A stretch of 62,002 nt of DNA from positions 1-62,002 of the forward strand of contig JAKRSD010000001.1 in NCBI GenBank assembly GCA_022402535.1, read 5' to 3'. A program made the translations under genes and the position numbers. Origin of the DNA: Flavobacteriales bacterium. Its GTDB lineage: Bacteria > Bacteroidota > Bacteroidia > CAIKAF01. Shown piece by piece: positions 29,200-40,170 of the stretch. The notes below the pieces were generated by a model. That model did not search any database, was not told the DNA's origin, and was given only the letters and a program-made list of their open reading frames with translations. Position 1 is the stretch's first letter. Every line of letters begins with the position of its first letter.

Positions 29200-29808
29200 A
29201 TGAGTACACCGAAAAAAATCCTCGTTTTCATGGTTCTCTGCGTTTGGGGAACCCTCTCTGTGTTTACTTTAATTCATCATAAACCTTTTGAAAATGGCGG
29301 AGAAACCGAAACAATGTTTCATACTTTACAAGTGGAAAATGGTTTGGCCACTTTTGAAATATTCAGAAATGGGCAAAACTTTCCTGAAGTAGATTTTCGA
29401 TTTCCTGCCGGCAGTTTCCAATTTTCCGTTCCCGAAGCAGCGGGTTATTCGGGCGTAAGAGGATTAGCGCCATTGCATGAAAACCGTTTGGCGTTGTCTT
29501 TTATTATTCCTCATAAGCCTGATACTTTGGTTATTATTTCTCCCAATACCATCCACATTACAGAATATGCCCTGGCGCTTAATGCTGAAGGGAATTGTGT
29601 GGCTCACTTAGCGCCCAACACTTCAGATGAAGTAGATTTAGTAATAAGCGATTTGGACGGCAGATGGGAAAACCGCACACCTTTGCCGGGCTTGAATCCC
29701 TCTAGCCTGAAATCCTTATCCATTTTTTCTGCATACTTTGAAAACGAATATTTTCATTTGAATACTCCCTACGGAAGCATAAGAAAACAGTACATATCCC
29801 CTGTTTAG
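29200..29808 (+). CDS. membrane-anchored or secreted hypothetical protein
   Basis: 202 residues beginning with a hydrophobic segment (KILVFMVLCVWGTLSVFTLI) that acts as a signal peptide or anchor. The rest is soluble and beta-rich with no recognisable motif. Its stop at 29808 is only two bases before an inverted repeat that precedes the heme-uptake genes. Function unknown. Confidence 0.65.
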   Translation: MSTPKKILVFMVLCVWGTLSVFTLIHHKPFENGGETETMFHTLQVENGLATFEIFRNGQNFPEVDFRFPAGSFQFSVPEAAGYSGVRGLAPLHENRLALSFIIPHKPDTLVIISPNTIHITEYALALNAEGNCVAHLAPNTSDEVDLVISDLDGRWENRTPLPGLNPSSLKSLSIFSAYFENEYFHLNTPYGSIRKQYISPV

Positions 29809-29810
29809 GT

Positions 29811-29826
29811 TACCTACGATTAGGTA
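29811..29826. promoter_or_regulatory. palindromic candidate operator upstream of the HmuY/TonB operon
   Basis: TACCTA (29811-29816) and TAGGTA (29821-29826) are perfect inverted repeats around CGAT, 57 bases upstream of the -7 box. No T-run follows, so it is unlikely to be a terminator. A regulator-binding site is possible but unproven. Confidence 0.35.
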
Positions 29827-29859: not shown

Positions 29860-29890
29860 TTGTAAGGCCTCCGGTCGCAGTATAGCTTTG
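29860..29890 (+). promoter_or_regulatory. promoter of the heme-uptake operon
   Basis: TTG (29860-29862) and TAGCTTTG (29883-29890) are separated by 20 bases, close to the Bacteroidota -33/-7 arrangement. It predicts a transcription start near 29897, about 25 bases before the ATG at 29922. Confidence 0.55.
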
Positions 29891-29921: not shown

Positions 29922-31214
29922 ATGAAGAAGTTTTTCTTTTTATTGATTTTGGCTTCGGCTGCTTTACAAACACAGGCGCAGAATTGGATTCCCGATTCGG
30001 TTGTGCTTGGTCCGGGGTATACTAACCGTGGTTTTTACAGTCTGGAGAATGGGAATGTGGGCTCGGTGCCTTTCAATACCCGCGACTGGATGATCGATGT
30101 AAGCGCGGTATATTCGGCTACCATTCGTATCAACGGAGGATTTTTTGCGGAGTGTTACAAATACACCGCCGATGATACAGCCGATTGGGCTACTTTGGAT
30201 ACGACAGGATTAAAAGCCGGTAACGGCTGGGTGCGTGCCCGCGACGACAGGCAATCGTTAGCTCCTTCCGCATTTGAATATGGCGAAACCGGCCATCCTA
30301 ATTACGGATGGGGAGATTATAATCAAATTACGCACGTAGTAACTGGTAACAGTCTGTTTGTTTATAAAACGGTTGGAAACGGAACCCCCAATTCTGCCCA
30401 ATGGAAAAAAATATGGATTAAAGAACTGAGTGCATCCCCCAGAGAATTTATCATCTGGGCCGCTGATTTAGACGGCGGAAATCAACAAACGATAACCATC
30501 AGTAAAGAAGGGGTTACTAATAAAAGTTTCATTTATTACAGTTTTGCTACCAACGAAGTATATAACGATGAGCCTGCCGCAAATTCGTTTGATTTAATCT
30601 TCACCAAATTCGAAGATGAATATTCATTTATGGGAGGAACTTCAATACAGGCGGTTACCGGAGTAGAAAACAACAATGGGGTTTTCGTGGCCCGTGTACA
30701 GGGCATTCCTGCCAACGACGCCGTTTATACGGATTATACTTTGGAAACGGACATTTACGGTATCGGTCATGATTGGAAAACGCTGAATATGCAGACTTTC
30801 CAGTTTGTGTTAGCTGATTCGCTCAGCTATTTTGTGCAGGATGTACCCGGCAATATCTGGCAGATCCGCTTCACCGGATTTTTGGGTACTTCTACCGGAA
30901 AATACCGTTTCGAAAAACGCAAAGTAGCTTTTGCTTCCGTGGAAGAAAGCGTAACCGTGGGTGCGTGGAATGTATTTCCAAATCCTACTTCGGATTATGC
31001 GCAGGTTGTATTCTCTGCCAAAACAGCAAGTCCTGTGCGTATTTCTTTGATTGATTTATCAGGAAAAGTACGCGTAACGGAAAACATCACTTCACAGGTG
31101 GGTATCAACCAGCACACACTTTCATTACAGGGCAAAAACCTGGCATCGGGTGTGTATGTGTTGCAAATCCATGCCGGAGAAACCGTAAAATCTACCAAAC
31201 TGGTTGTTCGATAA
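29922..31214 (+). CDS. HmuY-like protein with C-terminal T9SS type A sorting domain
   Basis: 430 residues with a signal peptide (FFFLLILASAALQTQAQ). The central part matches the HmuY lipoprotein two genes downstream: FIYYSF followed by EPAANSFDLIFTKF here against FVYFSF and EPAKNTYDLYFTHY there, then GHDWKTL and IWQIRFTGF against GYDWKSY and FWKMRFVSF. The last 80 residues are a T9SS type A domain (NVFPNPTSDYA, LASGVYVLQI, KLVVR). HmuY proteins bind heme outside the cell; this one would be exported by T9SS instead of being lipidated. Heme ligands cannot be assigned by eye. First gene of a three-gene operon. Confidence 0.75.
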   Translation: MKKFFFLLILASAALQTQAQNWIPDSVVLGPGYTNRGFYSLENGNVGSVPFNTRDWMIDVSAVYSATIRINGGFFAECYKYTADDTADWATLDTTGLKAGNGWVRARDDRQSLAPSAFEYGETGHPNYGWGDYNQITHVVTGNSLFVYKTVGNGTPNSAQWKKIWIKELSASPREFIIWAADLDGGNQQTITISKEGVTNKSFIYYSFATNEVYNDEPAANSFDLIFTKFEDEYSFMGGTSIQAVTGVENNNGVFVARVQGIPANDAVYTDYTLETDIYGIGHDWKTLNMQTFQFVLADSLSYFVQDVPGNIWQIRFTGFLGTSTGKYRFEKRKVAFASVEESVTVGAWNVFPNPTSDYAQVVFSAKTASPVRISLIDLSGKVRVTENITSQVGINQHTLSLQGKNLASGVYVLQIHAGETVKSTKLVVR

Positions 31215-31217
31215 ACA

Positions 31218-33470
31218 GTGACCGGAAGAGTATTTTCAGTGATATTTTGTTTGCTTTGGGCGGGTACTGTATCCGCTCAAAGCTTTTTGCATCTGAAAGA
31301 GGCAGAAACGGGTTCCGATTTGTTTGGAGCCCACATAAAATTTTCGGATCCTGAAAATAAAGAACGATACAAATTCGACATTTCCGATAATTCGGGAAAG
31401 GTGGAAATTCCTTTCACCGGGAAAGTAAAAATATCGGTTACGTATCTTGGGTATAAATCCATAGATACATTGTTGACGGGTGGTTCGCATACGCTTACCC
31501 TGTATCCGCTCAAAAATATTTTAAAGCCTGTAGAACTGGTTTCTGATTTTATTCCACGGGGTGAGGATGCCGTAGTACAGCAGATTACCGTGATAAACCG
31601 GGAACGGATAGAAAATCAGGGAGCTCAAAATTTGCGCGATCTGCTTACCAATAACCTCAATATCCGCATTGCCAACGATAATATTTTGGGTTCATCACTT
31701 TCTATGCAGGGCATAGGTGGCGAAAATGTAAAAATCATGATTGACGGTGTGCCCGTGATTGGCCGTTTGGATGGCAATATCGATTTGGGTCAGATCAATC
31801 TCAACAATATTGAACGGGTTGAAATCATTCAGGGTCCGGCTTCGGCGGCTTATGGAACCAATGCACTGGGCGGGATTATCAACCTTATCACCAAAAAAGA
31901 CATCACCACTACTGTGGAAGCGGGCGTTACGGGGTATTACGAAACGGTAGGAAATTATAACGTGGATGCCAATGCTTCATTCCGGGTAAAAAATCATAGC
32001 CTGCGTTTTTCGGGTGGCCGTTATTTTTTTGATGGGTTCAACAGTCAGCCCGACAGCACCCGGTTTATGCAATGGAAACCCAAACGTCAGGCCTTCGGTG
32101 ATGTGCAGTATATCTGGAAAATAAAAGAAGTTTCGCTCAGGTATTTGGGTTCTTACTTCAATGAAAAAATTGAAAACAAAGGACGTCCCCTGGCTCCTTT
32201 TGGTGTTTCGGCACGAGATAATTATTACATCACCGATAGAATTTCCAATACCCTTTCGTTTACAGGTTTCCTGAAGCCAAGGCATCATTTGGATGTTACG
32301 GCAAATTATTCGCTTTTTGTGCGTAATGTAGAAGTGATTTTTAAGGATCTGGTAACGCTTGATAAAAACCTGCTCGAAAAAAACACCGACCGCTTCAACC
32401 TGATTATGTCGCGTGGTATTTACAGCTACACGGGCGCTTCCGAGAAATTGTTGGTTCAGGCGGGTTACGATATTAATGTGGAAACCGGTACCGGTCCGCG
32501 AATTAAAACGGGTACCCAGAGTATGGGCGATTATGCCGGATTTTTATCGGCAGAATATACCGCATGGAAAAGGCTTACCCTTAAACCCAGCTTCCGATAT
32601 GGCTACAACAGCCGCTTCCGGATGCCCGTAATCCCTGCATTTGCCCTGAAAATTCAGGCACATAAATATCTCCAGCTCCGGGCGGCGTATTCCCGAGGCT
32701 TCAGAGCGCCTGATTTGAAAGAATTATATTTTGAATTTATTGATGTAAACCACAATATTGTGGGTAACGAAAACCTGAATGCAGAAACATCGCATAATGT
32801 GACGGCATCACTTACTTTTAAAATGAATAAAAAAGACTATGCCTTCAGCATAGAACCTTCAGGTTTTTATAACGATATCAATAACCGCATAACCCTGGTT
32901 TACACCGGCGATTTATCGGCTAACGGAATTCCGGTGTACACCAACCGGAACATCGGACGATTCCAAAGTACGGGAGCCAATGTGAATTTAACGTTCGCAT
33001 ATAAAGGGTTGCAGTTGAATTCCGGTTTTTCGTACACGGGAATTGCCCAAACCTTTAATAACCAAAACATACAAAACGCAGAATTCCTTTTTTATCCTGA
33101 AGTGCGTACCAACCTGACTTATACCTATACCCGTTGGAATATATCGGGAAATCTGTTTTATAAATATAACGGCACCCAACCTTTCCTTTTTACGGATGAA
33201 AATGAGGAGTTGATCCGGGGAAGTATTCAGGGTTTTCATACTTTGGATGTGGGGGTTACCAAACATTTTTTTAAAAAAGCATTGCGGATTACCGCATTGG
33301 GCAAAAACCTGCTTAACGTCAGAAATCTCTTGCAAAATGGGATTGCACCGAATGGAGGCGCACATTCTTCATCCGCCGGACCTGTTTCTGCCGCATGGGG
33401 TAGAACTTTTGCTTTGGCTGTGAGTTATAATTTCTCTTGGACAAAAAAGAAAAATGAAAAGAATCAGTAG
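31218..33470 (+). CDS. TonB-dependent receptor, probable heme (HmuR-type)
   Basis: 750 residues starting at GTG 31218, three bases after the preceding stop. A signal peptide (VFSVIFCLLWAGTVSAQ) is followed by a carboxypeptidase-regulatory-like domain (residues ~22-100), a plug domain (INRERIENQGAQNLRDLL, MIDGVPVIGRLDG, NIERVEIIQGPASAAYGTNA) and a 22-strand-type barrel. The barrel ends GRTFALAVSYNFSW with a short basic tail. The substrate is inferred from the two flanking HmuY-type genes. It transports across the outer membrane using TonB energy. Confidence 0.88.
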   Translation: MTGRVFSVIFCLLWAGTVSAQSFLHLKEAETGSDLFGAHIKFSDPENKERYKFDISDNSGKVEIPFTGKVKISVTYLGYKSIDTLLTGGSHTLTLYPLKNILKPVELVSDFIPRGEDAVVQQITVINRERIENQGAQNLRDLLTNNLNIRIANDNILGSSLSMQGIGGENVKIMIDGVPVIGRLDGNIDLGQINLNNIERVEIIQGPASAAYGTNALGGIINLITKKDITTTVEAGVTGYYETVGNYNVDANASFRVKNHSLRFSGGRYFFDGFNSQPDSTRFMQWKPKRQAFGDVQYIWKIKEVSLRYLGSYFNEKIENKGRPLAPFGVSARDNYYITDRISNTLSFTGFLKPRHHLDVTANYSLFVRNVEVIFKDLVTLDKNLLEKNTDRFNLIMSRGIYSYTGASEKLLVQAGYDINVETGTGPRIKTGTQSMGDYAGFLSAEYTAWKRLTLKPSFRYGYNSRFRMPVIPAFALKIQAHKYLQLRAAYSRGFRAPDLKELYFEFIDVNHNIVGNENLNAETSHNVTASLTFKMNKKDYAFSIEPSGFYNDINNRITLVYTGDLSANGIPVYTNRNIGRFQSTGANVNLTFAYKGLQLNSGFSYTGIAQTFNNQNIQNAEFLFYPEVRTNLTYTYTRWNISGNLFYKYNGTQPFLFTDENEELIRGSIQGFHTLDVGVTKHFFKKALRITALGKNLLNVRNLLQNGIAPNGGAHSSSAGPVSAAWGRTFALAVSYNFSWTKKKNEKNQ

Positions 33471-34446
33471 TATATATATTCTTGTTTTAGCACTGGTATT
33501 TTCCGGATGTTTTAAAGAAGACGATCCCGTGCCGCCTTATGTTTCCCCTCCGGGAGTGATTACGGCACAGGCCGAAACCAAACCCGATTATTCCATGCAG
33601 ACGTATTACGATTTGGCTACCAATTCGTTTGTGTCATCCAACCACCGCGAAGACTGGGATATTTCCTTTTTATGCCGTGTGGGTATTTCGGCCATTTATC
33701 TTAATTCTGCCAAAAGAATGCGCGTACACGATACTCAAAGCGAAGATTGGCAGGTAGCCGTAACCGTGAGTAATCCCACGTTGGAATGGAAGTTTGACGA
33801 AAGCACCGGAGAGCCTGAAAATACGGCGTTTTATGGCTTTCAGCTTAATCGTATTTATGTGTTGGATTTGGGATTATCAACATTGGGTTCGTCTTTAGGA
33901 TATCGCAAAATCCGATTCACGCAGGTAACGGAACAAACGCTTTCGTTTGAATTTGCCGATTTGTCCGGGAATAATGTGCAAGCAGGCTCTCTTACTAAAA
34001 ACAGCGATTATAACTTTGTGTACTTCAGTTTTAAAAATGGAGGACAATCCGTTTTTCCTGAACCGGCAAAAAACACTTACGACTTATACTTTACCCATTA
34101 TACCACTCGTGTTTTCTACGAAGGCAGCACAACTGAATTTGAATGGTATCTGGTGAACGGTACGTTGCTTAATCCCGATGGAGTAGCTGTTGCTGTGGAC
34201 AGTACCGATAATTTTTCGGGAATTACCTATGCGGATTTGTCCGGATTTACATTTTCAACACAGCGTGATTTTATTGGCTACGACTGGAAAAGCTACGATA
34301 TTGATGCCGGTGTTTATACCGTGCTCCTTCAAAATACCTATTTGATTCGTGATCGCAGCGGCGAATTTTGGAAAATGCGTTTTGTGAGTTTTACCAACGA
34401 TTTAGGCGAACGCGGATACCCTACATTTGAAGTGGCGAAATTTTAG
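33454..34446 (+). CDS. HmuY-family heme-binding lipoprotein
   Basis: 330 residues with a lipoprotein signal (ISSIYILVLALVFSGC, Cys at about 18). The start overlaps the receptor gene by 17 bases. It has the HmuY pattern: a Y/F-rich beta fold, FVYFSFKNG, EPAKNTYDLYFTHYTTRV, GYDWKSYDI and FWKMRFVSFTNDLGE. In Porphyromonas gingivalis HmuY captures heme and passes it to HmuR. The axial ligands here cannot be assigned without alignment. It and the first operon gene are paralogues. Confidence 0.85.
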   Translation: MKRISSIYILVLALVFSGCFKEDDPVPPYVSPPGVITAQAETKPDYSMQTYYDLATNSFVSSNHREDWDISFLCRVGISAIYLNSAKRMRVHDTQSEDWQVAVTVSNPTLEWKFDESTGEPENTAFYGFQLNRIYVLDLGLSTLGSSLGYRKIRFTQVTEQTLSFEFADLSGNNVQAGSLTKNSDYNFVYFSFKNGGQSVFPEPAKNTYDLYFTHYTTRVFYEGSTTEFEWYLVNGTLLNPDGVAVAVDSTDNFSGITYADLSGFTFSTQRDFIGYDWKSYDIDAGVYTVLLQNTYLIRDRSGEFWKMRFVSFTNDLGERGYPTFEVAKF

Positions 34447-36891: not shown

Positions 36892-37914
36892 CTAGAAAAC
36901 GAAATCGGTGGGTGCTACGCCGGTGGTGAAGTTTTTTAATAATCCCCCGCCCGAACTGAAAATATACACGCTTCCCGCAGAGCTGAAATCGCCGGCGTCA
37001 CCAAGCCATACCTGCCCATTTTCGGGATGAATGCCGATACCATAAAAGTATTTTCCGGGTAAAGAAATAAACTGTTCCGGATTGGAAACATCATCCATTG
37101 ATTTGCGATATACTTTTCCGCTGTACAAAAAATATAACATATTCTGCTGTGCATTCATGCGAAGTTTTGAAGCTCCATAATCCGGTAGTACATATTCCCA
37201 TTCAACATTGCGGGTTGATTCATTCACTCTGACCAGTTTTGAAGGGGTATTATCCATATAATTTCCGCCCGTGAGAATCCAAATTTTTCCATTGGCATCT
37301 TTGCGGATGGAGGTGCTGCCATAACCCACCAAAACACTGTCTGCTACGGCATCATTTTCTAAAATATACGTGTATTCGCGCATGCCGTTGGTAACCCATA
37401 CGCCGTTTTCTGTTTTCAGCATTTCTTCGGTCCATCCCGGCAGGGAAATAGTACCTGTAATGCTCATAGAATTTAGGTTTACAATAGAAACGGCACCCGA
37501 AAATAAATCCGAAACATAGGCTTTCCCGGGCTCGGTTACACATACGTATCGCGGCGAAGTAAAGCCCGAAAGGGTCCCTTTGCTTTTAAAATCGGTAGGA
37601 TTTACCGTTTCAATTTTGCCTGAATTATTCACTACTATGTAGGCGGTGTTATTATAAACAATCATGCTTTGCAGCACATCGCCCAGTGGAATGCCGTTTG
37701 CTGTTTCAAAAATGTTGGTTACCAATTCGCCATTTTCTGATTTATAAAAATCTATTCTTGAATTTCCCTGTAAAAATGCGCCTTCACAGAGAATAAATGT
37801 ACCATTCCCCGAAAAGGTATTTTCTGGATCTGTATTTTCTTTTTTACAGGCTGTAAAAAGCGTGGTAGATAAAAGCAGTAGGGCCGCAGCTCTTTGAATG
37901 TTGTTCTTCAGCAT
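36892..37914 (-). CDS. BtuG-like beta-propeller lipoprotein (YncE/DUF5074 type)
   Basis: 340 residues with a lipoprotein signal (AALLLLSTTLFTAC). The mature protein is a repeated-strand sequence of YncE-type propeller blades (KIETVNPTDFKSKGTL, AVSIVNLNSMSITGTISL, YGIGIHPENGQVWLGDAG). It lies 13 bases after a BtuB-like receptor gene that is headed by a cobalamin riboswitch. In Bacteroides, BtuG is a surface lipoprotein of this fold that binds B12 with very high affinity and docks on BtuB; the same role is inferred here. It converges with the LysM gene with five bases between. Confidence 0.8.
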   Translation of the reverse strand: MLKNNIQRAAALLLLSTTLFTACKKENTDPENTFSGNGTFILCEGAFLQGNSRIDFYKSENGELVTNIFETANGIPLGDVLQSMIVYNNTAYIVVNNSGKIETVNPTDFKSKGTLSGFTSPRYVCVTEPGKAYVSDLFSGAVSIVNLNSMSITGTISLPGWTEEMLKTENGVWVTNGMREYTYILENDAVADSVLVGYGSTSIRKDANGKIWILTGGNYMDNTPSKLVRVNESTRNVEWEYVLPDYGASKLRMNAQQNMLYFLYSGKVYRKSMDDVSNPEQFISLPGKYFYGIGIHPENGQVWLGDAGDFSSAGSVYIFSSGGGLLKNFTTGVAPTDFVF

Positions 37915-37927
37915 AAGTATGTGTTAT

Positions 37928-39874
37928 TTATCTTTTTTTTTCTGGTAAAATTTTATGAAAACCGAGACTGATTCCCACCCGGAAATTCCGGCCGGGCATG
38001 GGGCGGAATTCGATGATTTCGTATCGTGTATTGGTTATATTGTCTAATTCAAACCATGCATTCAGTTTGAAGCCTAAAAAATACACCGCCTGTCTGATCC
38101 CCACGGCTCCCGTATGAAATGAGGGGATAAATGCCGAATTATCGGCCAACGTATAACGCAATCCGGTGAATCGGTGGGCGTAATACAGTGTGGTTCTTTT
38201 TATACTGAATGTGGCCGAAACGGAACCTAAATGCATCGGAATATTGGGAAGTTGTTTGCCGAATGCGGGGTCCCCTTCAAAGCGGGGTTTGGCGCGTACC
38301 GCCTTTGTATAACTGTAATGTCCTTCCAGCACAAATGACCGGTTATTCTTGTACATACCCAATTTGATATCACTTTCGTTTCCGAAACCCCTTGTGCGGT
38401 CAATGTTTTCGGGCGTCCAAAAAAGGGGTCCGGGAATCCAGACTATACGGTTTTGTATGGTTTGATGAAATCCGGTGGATGAAATGAAAATGGAGAATTT
38501 TCTACCATTTTTACTTTCTATGTTTTTTTCGAATTGGGCGCCGAGTTCCTGAGCCAATCCCGTTTCGGGTTTTAAATTCGGATTTCCGCCCGGAAACCAG
38601 TATAAATCATTAAAAGAAGGTTGTCTGTAATTTCGGTTGATTCGCATCCGCAGTGAAAAAGACTTAACCGGTTCCAGACGCACACTCAGCGAAGGACAAA
38701 AGGGCGTCCATTGGCCATCGGTAATTTCTTCTACGGCCTGTATGGCCGCTTCGCCCAATTGTTTGGGCAGCAGATATCGATACCCCAGGAATAAAGACGT
38801 TTGGTTTCTTTGAGGGCTGAGTGCCTGATATTCGGACATGAACACTTTATAGTAGGCGTGATTCACTCCCGCCATCAATGAGTGATTTTTGTGTATGGAA
38901 TACACATACTCGGCCTGTGATAGCGACGCATATTGAATCATGAAAGACGGATTCGGCAGCGAATGTTCATTGTAGAAAAGATAATCGTACAAAAAGGCGG
39001 TTTTCAGGCTCAGGCTGTGCTTTTCGCGGAAGGTATGTTTCCATCCGATCATGCTTCGCAGATTTTTATCAATCTGTTTGGCCTTTCCGTTTCCCGTAAT
39101 CATAGTGCCGGGGATTTGCCTCTTATTAACCTGATACCAGATGGAGGTAGTAATTTCTCCATATTTTTTTAGTTGATGGGTATAATCGGCATTTAATGAA
39201 TATCCTCTTGCCGCCGCATTTTCAAGGCGTTCTAAAGGTCGGTTGATGAGCGTGCGGTTTACGTATGGAAAGTTGTTCAAAGTAGAGTAAAGCCTCACTC
39301 CGGCTGAAAAAACATCGCGGTTGCCTTTATAAGCCAGATGAAAAAATTGATTGTTCCGGTTAAAAGACCCAAATTCTAATCCGGCACCACCATGTATTCC
39401 CTTTTCTTTGGGAGCAACGGGATTCACCTGTAAAGTTCCGCCAATCGCACCCGAACCAAATAATCCGCTTTGTCCGCCCGGAAGCAGGGACATTTTGTAA
39501 TTCTCAGGAACCGATTCCATGCCCGGATCGGGCGTGGCATTCACTGTGTTTTGTAAGGTGAATCCCCGCCATATAATCGGAGTATGAACCGCTTCGGTAC
39601 CGCGTAGTGAAAGGGATGATAGTAATCCGGGACCGTAAGATTTTACAAACACCACATTACGATGCTGAAGTAATTGGGCTAGAGTTCTGAAGGTATCGGT
39701 GGCTTCGGTTCTAACCCGTAACGCGGGGTCGAATAACACTTTATGGGTTTCAGAATAAGTGAATTGGGACAACTTGTGATAATGAACAGGCAAAGAATCG
39801 GATTGCGAATAACAGGAATAACCCTTCAGAAGGGCAAACACAAAAAGCGGAATATGAATTTGTTTTTTCAGCAC
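37928..39874 (-). CDS. TonB-dependent receptor, probable cobalamin transporter (BtuB-like)
   Basis: 648 residues. A signal peptide (IHIPLFVFALLKGYSCYSQ) is followed by a plug domain (LAQLLQHRNVVFVKSYG, LSLRGTEAVHTPIIWRGF, GGQSGLFGSGAIGGTLQV) and a beta barrel that contains RQPSFNDLYWFPGGNPNLKP. No N-terminal carboxypeptidase-like domain is present. The substrate is inferred from the B12 riboswitch immediately upstream and the BtuG-like gene downstream. Confidence 0.88.
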   Translation of the reverse strand: MLKKQIHIPLFVFALLKGYSCYSQSDSLPVHYHKLSQFTYSETHKVLFDPALRVRTEATDTFRTLAQLLQHRNVVFVKSYGPGLLSSLSLRGTEAVHTPIIWRGFTLQNTVNATPDPGMESVPENYKMSLLPGGQSGLFGSGAIGGTLQVNPVAPKEKGIHGGAGLEFGSFNRNNQFFHLAYKGNRDVFSAGVRLYSTLNNFPYVNRTLINRPLERLENAAARGYSLNADYTHQLKKYGEITTSIWYQVNKRQIPGTMITGNGKAKQIDKNLRSMIGWKHTFREKHSLSLKTAFLYDYLFYNEHSLPNPSFMIQYASLSQAEYVYSIHKNHSLMAGVNHAYYKVFMSEYQALSPQRNQTSLFLGYRYLLPKQLGEAAIQAVEEITDGQWTPFCPSLSVRLEPVKSFSLRMRINRNYRQPSFNDLYWFPGGNPNLKPETGLAQELGAQFEKNIESKNGRKFSIFISSTGFHQTIQNRIVWIPGPLFWTPENIDRTRGFGNESDIKLGMYKNNRSFVLEGHYSYTKAVRAKPRFEGDPAFGKQLPNIPMHLGSVSATFSIKRTTLYYAHRFTGLRYTLADNSAFIPSFHTGAVGIRQAVYFLGFKLNAWFELDNITNTRYEIIEFRPMPGRNFRVGISLGFHKILPEKKR

Positions 39875-39959: not shown

Positions 39960-40160
39960 TTTCCCGAAGCCCGGCCAATATGTCGCATCCGGCAGGTCTT
40001 CTGACTTACCCCGGTTTTGGAGCCTTCCCGTGTTAGCCACAGTGGCAGTTTTCCAAACCTTGTTCCTCTTAGGAACGGGGCTTACAGCAGCGGGTACTGT
40101 TCCCGATTTTCACAGGATTCCCTTTTCATTCATGAATACCCTTCATGAAACCAAATGCGG
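39960..40160 (-). ncRNA. cobalamin (B12) riboswitch
   Basis: On the minus strand the leader contains the conserved B12 box as AAGTCAGAAGACCTGCC (around 39989-40007), preceded by the core elements GGGAATCCTGTG, CCCGCTGCTGTAA and GCCACTG in the expected order. It lies between a minus-strand -7 box (40163-40170) and the BtuB-like gene at 39874. In Bacteroidota this element usually represses translation or transcription of B12 uptake genes when adenosylcobalamin is present. A GGGCTTCGGG-type hairpin follows the box near 39957-39975. Confidence 0.92.
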
Positions 40161-40162
40161 GT

Positions 40163-40170
40163 CAAAGATA
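40163..40170 (-). promoter_or_regulatory. -7 promoter box of the riboswitch transcript
   Basis: On the minus strand TATCTTTG, an exact TAnnTTTG match, placing the start near 40157 at the 5' end of the riboswitch. Confidence 0.55.

Follow-up and report, generated by a model that had tools for sequence, protein, structure and literature searches.

The three-gene locus and its control region

The forward strand of the window (the whole stretch of 62,002 nucleotides that we analysed) carries at positions 29922-34446 three contiguous genes, encoding a HmuY-type protein that we call T9Y, a TonB receptor and a HmuY lipoprotein. The limits of the three open reading frames are exactly those given in the initial annotation of this DNA. 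Pfam and NCBIfam searches, together with the reading frames, also bore out its description of a type A domain in the first gene, a TonB receptor with a GTG start in the second, and in the third a HmuY lipoprotein whose gene overlaps that of the receptor by 17 bp (33454-33470). The genes and their control elements are as follows.

29811..29826, + strand: inverted repeat TACCTA-CGAT-TAGGTA, likely operator, kept in nearly all close relatives inspected
29860..29890, + strand: probable -33/-7 promoter of Bacteroidota type, read from the sequence (TTG at 29860-29862, 20 nt, TAGCTTTG at 29883-29890)
29922..31214, + strand: T9Y, predicted T9SS-exported HmuY paralogue (430 aa, ATG start)
31218..33470, + strand: predicted TonB-dependent heme receptor (750 aa, GTG start)
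33454..34446, + strand: HmuY lipoprotein (330 aa, ATG start; lipobox Cys19, then FKEDD)

The GTG of the receptor lies 3 nt past the T9Y stop codon, and gaps within the set do not exceed 3 nt. Promoters of Bacteroidota follow the consensus TTG/TAnnTTTG, and an element of this type precedes T9Y. Because of this promoter and the very short gaps, the three genes are likely read as one transcript.

The inverted repeat sits just upstream of the promoter. We found TACCTA-N4-TAGGTA, exact or with 1-2 changes, ahead of the T9Y start codon in almost every close relative inspected; more distant relatives carry a different box. Only two exact copies occur in the 3.4 Mb genome, the second of which (G000:C12:253540-253555) lies before a c-type cytochrome/respiratory operon. 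It is possible that the heme operon and the c-type cytochrome operon share a regulator. Near the second site we also observed TTTAGAATCTTTCTAAA, which resembles the box before T9Y in two relatives (L082 and L101).

Just upstream of the operon, an ORF of 202 aa (29200-29808, + strand) had no Pfam or NCBIfam match. The classical hmuSTUV genes (CobN-like and membrane genes) are absent directly downstream, where a GDSL hydrolase and a LysM-type protein are encoded instead. Convergent with the heme set, a DUF5074 lipoprotein (36892-37914, - strand) and a TonB receptor (37928-39874, - strand) make up a BtuB/BtuG-type unit for B12 uptake, preceded by a cobalamin riboswitch (39974-40170, - strand, 107.8 bits). 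A relation of the three-gene locus itself to B12, through this nearby riboswitch, was ruled out: the riboswitch serves the separate receptor/DUF5074 unit on the opposite strand.

Two HmuY-type proteins with probable tandem modules

The lipoprotein belongs to the HmuY family (PF14064, 58.1 bits against a cut-off of 27), and its structure search returned eight entries of the HmuY family (Z 12.8-15.8) before the score dropped to 6.2 for the next, unrelated entry. Its lipobox Cys19 is invariant, and at least two acidic residues follow the cysteine in 61 of 64 relatives. With both the lipobox cysteine and the acidic export signal, the protein is predicted to reside on the cell surface.

T9Y is clearly related to this lipoprotein. 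The two align at 26% identity over 182 aa (BLASTP, E 3e-13), and profile-profile comparison of their families gave a probability of 100 (E 7e-47, 280 columns). They have in common the motifs FIYYSF/FVYFSF, EPAANSFDLIFT/EPAKNTYDLYFT and HDWK/YDWK; the motif sharing proposed in the initial annotation is therefore real, with a resemblance beyond chance in both comparisons. T9Y itself has no match to PF14064 at the cut-off of 27 bits, whole or as either half, and its orthologues L046 and L041 do match (35.1 and 30.5 bits). AlphaFold2 modelled both proteins with high pLDDT (T9Y 93.5, lipoprotein 94.2). The best 50 Foldseek matches listed for T9Y held no HmuY entry; a second look, with VIA-align, did find HmuY entries. 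In the latter search, the six best structural matches to mature T9Y residues 1-320 were PinO, heme-HmuY, BfrB, apo-HmuY, BVU_2192 and BF2707, all of the HmuY family (Z 12.6-13.9, 131-137 residues aligned, rmsd 2.9-3.4). Structure prediction and search had been named beforehand as the check on the kinship of the first protein; the AlphaFold2 model and the structure search yielded a HmuY-like fold, and a non-HmuY fold was not found.

The remainder of T9Y resembles the tail of proteins exported by the type IX secretion system (T9SS). Mature residues 317-411 match the C-terminal domains of mirolase, PorU and NucA (Z 10.7-12.1). All the marks of a T9SS type A cargo are present: a hydrophobic N-terminus, predicted to be a signal peptide with AQ at its end, the sorting domain of type A (TIGR04183, 49 bits against a cut-off of 23), and T9SS genes in the same genome (SprA; PorU, 1131 bits against a cut-off of 420). 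Together, the sequence comparisons and the model indicate that T9Y is a full-length HmuY paralogue with an added T9SS C-terminal domain. Its predicted parts are:

29982..30515, + strand: first HmuY-like module of T9Y (residues 21-198; from hhalign of halves and the N half of orthologue L133)
30516..30932, + strand: second HmuY-like module of T9Y (residues 199-337; from hhalign of halves and the C half of orthologue L046)
30972..31208, + strand: T9SS type A C-terminal sorting domain (residues 351-429; PF18962, 46 bits)

HmuY proteins known so far consist of one module. The cores of T9Y and the lipoprotein are about 1.5 to 2 times the length of known HmuY, and hhalign matched the N half of T9Y both to its own C half (probability 93.9, E 1.5e-7, 115 columns) and to the C half of the lipoprotein (94.4, E 8.6e-8). 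As controls for these two comparisons, the highest values from 30 column shuffles were 3.9 and 1.4, and the reversed profile gave 5.0 and 0.2, respectively. Between the two halves of the lipoprotein the match was weaker (65.4, against no more than 10.1 in shuffles). Among relatives, single halves cover nearly the whole HmuY profile: the N half of orthologue L133 aligns to PF14064 positions 2-141 (28.9 bits), and the C half of orthologue L046 (residues 190-314) to positions 3-147. Because the halves match each other and single halves in relatives span the profile, both T9Y and the lipoprotein probably are tandem duplications of the HmuY module. The structural matches of T9Y span residues 1 to 320, which hints that the two modules may pack in an intertwined manner.

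The receptor, the link to heme and the spread of the gene set

The receptor carries a TonB plug (81 bits) and a barrel (95 bits) in Pfam, and its gene includes the segment that bears on the ligand:

32700..32780, + strand: FRAP box, His512 and NENL box of the receptor (His512 codon 32751-32753)

The FRAP and NxxL motifs are the signature of heme/hemoglobin receptors, although mutants in them behave variably (PMC9331221). Of 72 relatives, 71 retain the histidine between them, as in heme TonB receptors of the HmuR/HemR type. The best NCBIfam families for the receptor are TIGR01785 and TIGR01786, at 109 and 117 bits, under their cut-offs of 317 and 324.

HmuY binds heme via two axial His or Met residues. 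No equivalents of these ligands were evident by sequence in the T9Y or lipoprotein families, and the lipoprotein family alignment contains no conserved His. His125 and His138 of T9Y sit in a loop without clear alignment to HmuY, and the conservation of His125 is biased by the search pattern. We claim no heme ligand, since the alignment is ambiguous in the loop of HmuY His134/His166.

Three lines of evidence connect the set to heme, none of which depends on HmuY annotation. The first is the receptor signature; the second is co-occurrence with HemS. Among 247 genomes drawn evenly from the class, HemS was present in 20, and T9Y (counting strong matches) occurred in 18 of these 20 versus 66 of the 227 others (Fisher 1e-7). 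Counted by genus, T9Y was found in 11 of 13 with HemS versus 46 of 122 without (p 0.0014). HemS is absent from 66 of the 84 genomes with T9Y. The third line is linkage. In two relatives (L041 and L131) the genes run on one strand in the order T9Y-HmuT-HmuU-HmuV-HemS-receptor-HmuY, in three (L050, L133 and L134) a HmuTUV-HemS block adjoins the set, and in L132 HemS lies, by its coordinates, between T9Y and the receptor. The genome of the window has HemS alone, on another contig. These results support the view, first put forward in the initial annotation, that the locus is a heme-uptake operon.

We consider it improbable that the ligand is instead another tetrapyrrole or a metal complex. Such a ligand would fit the lack of obvious conservation of the HmuY heme ligands and the CbiX/ferrochelatase-like gene found within the set in L036 and its relatives, but the linkage to HemS and HmuTUV and the FRAP-His signature of the receptor speak against it. 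Heme is the ligand that we favour.

The gene set is widespread. In the first 29 loci that we collected (28 relatives plus the window), nearly all carry the three genes. A contig scan with alignment of closer relatives gave 64 loci, some from assemblies in common with the first 29; of the 59 with sufficient sequence, 56 contain the complete set, and T9Y comes first in 55. Profile matches to T9Y occurred in 88 of the 247 class genomes, 84 of them strong once four with only a weak single match are set aside, and a second HmuY-type match was present in 83 of those 84. The set therefore recurs in about one third of the sampled genomes of the class, and it was seen in dozens of genera. Chance neighbourhood or an annotation artefact is refuted by this conservation; we found nothing in favour of such a reading and give it practically no weight.

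Some loci depart from the plain three-gene order. CbiX/ferrochelatase-like and PepSY membrane genes lie between T9Y and the receptor in L036 (7988-9522) and also in L035 and L037, where they might act on an incoming tetrapyrrole. In L046 (7752-9800 and 12034-12492), genes for DUF6607, hemerythrin-like, DUF6686 and DoxX proteins are inserted in the set. Two loci, L066 and L085, are titled Competibacteraceae and Saccharospirillaceae yet contain typical Bacteroidota genes; these public MAG names look wrong.

Probable surface anchoring, proposed heme transfer and known systems

We think it quite probable that the locus is a heme-acquisition operon in which T9Y and the lipoprotein both hand heme or a hemoprotein to the receptor encoded between them, where binding, surface attachment, delivery and their order are steps that we infer. 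T9Y would cross the inner membrane via its signal peptide and the outer membrane via the type IX system, and would most likely be fixed outside by a PorU-type sortase, while a lipid would tether the lipoprotein to the outer surface. Both proteins would take heme, or a heme-bearing protein, and pass it to the TonB receptor. The two-stage capture put forward in the initial annotation would be one possible order of transfer. With two HmuY modules apparent in each protein, four would serve each receptor. Uptake would continue inside, where HemS may handle heme; an HmuTUV-type ABC transporter, linked to the set in relatives, could take part.

In ten full-length relatives the first protein lacks the T9SS tail, and all ten have a lipobox Cys; by a rough test, a loosely lipobox-like Cys occurs in 5 of 63 tailed first proteins. 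The ten form one Bacteroidales clade nested among tailed proteins, with branch supports of 45-95 en route, some of them weak (45-87), and 95 on the branch separating the clade from its nearest 23. Most simply, a single conversion of a T9SS-delivered protein to a lipoprotein accounts for this pattern, and display at the surface would then be what both forms require. Loss of the T9SS from genomes with a lipid-anchored first protein was ruled out, as SprA is present in 10 of 10. In two of these lipoprotein-form proteins (L114, 7614-8900; L117, 7647-8963) an extra N-terminal TDTSATTGG stretch precedes the HmuY core.

That a lipobox takes the place of the T9SS tail in one clade favours surface display over release, and an alternative account of T9Y, compatible with a heme function, has a probability that we put a little short of even: T9Y would be an anchored co-receptor that docks on the receptor with the lipoprotein, rather than a diffusing or first-stage hemophore. 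The exchange of anchors with SprA kept suggests that a surface anchor was retained. It is, however, one change on the tree and hence one event, reached through some weak branches, and later cleavage could release T9Y. The HmuY of P. gingivalis is released by cleavage.

The tree also bears on how the two proteins might share the work. T9Y and the lipoproteins lie on opposite sides of one branch (support 100), which suggests one old duplication followed by joint inheritance. T9Y has its own conserved loop, TGHP(N/D)YGWGxYNxxTHxVxG, the conservation of which is overstated because the relatives' loci were gathered partly by a pattern containing YGWG. Paralogues that split long ago and remain distinct, one with a loop of its own, could act in parallel on different sources, such as hemoprotein and free heme, and not in series; we regard such a division of labour as possible and rather doubtful.

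The locus may represent a widespread and previously unnamed class of Bacteroidia heme-uptake systems, in which two tandem-HmuY paralogues, one displayed by the T9SS (in one clade by a second lipid anchor) and one by a lipid anchor, bracket the receptor, and heme passes between four surface modules. We advance this broader proposal tentatively, at somewhat less than even confidence. If true, the T9SS would help to capture nutrients at a TonB receptor, and evolution could exchange the export route of a hemophore while leaving the gene set intact. A large share of environmental Bacteroidia would then have a heme system with two hemophores, of which only single HmuY proteins, in pathogens, have been studied.

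In the open-access literature searched, we found no description of tandem HmuY modules or of a T9SS HmuY paralogue and a HmuY lipoprotein flanking one receptor. The initial statement that no operon with both export routes had been described was too strong in light of the P. endodontalis hmu operon (PMC11208336) and the T9SS HmuY of F. columnare (PMC9618737). Several Porphyromonas species encode two to three HmuY homologues (PMC12106395).

The P. gingivalis HmuY-HmuR system (hmuYRSTUV) likewise combines a protein of HmuY fold with a neighbouring TonB receptor for heme. It differs in its one HmuY lipoprotein, which is about 216 aa long and has a single module, against two proteins of two predicted modules each here, and in the CobN-like and other genes (hmuSTUV) that follow there. 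In P. endodontalis, the T9SS type A gene POREN0001_0445 lies upstream of hmuY and hmuR and was demonstrated to belong to the hmu operon; unlike here, hmuY adjoins the T9SS gene and hmuRSTUV come next, and the product is described only as beta-barrel-like, not as HmuY-like (PMC11208336). F. columnare C6N29_01035 joins a HmuY domain and a Por_Secre_tail on one T9SS-secreted protein, as T9Y does; it was reported as a single gene, with no partner lipoprotein described, and its deletion impaired neither growth nor virulence (PMC9618737). In P. intermedia PIOMA14_I_1196-1198, too, a HmuY gene adjoins a T9SS type A gene, and iron depletion induces the two about 100-fold; unlike ours, that unit is described without a receptor (PMC10434189). 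The F. psychrophilum hfpR-DoxX-hfpY genes have one hemophore and the receptor first; like the present set, they combine a receptor with a HmuY-family hemophore, there co-transcribed, and the DoxX gene recurs in our relative L046 (PMC9331221).
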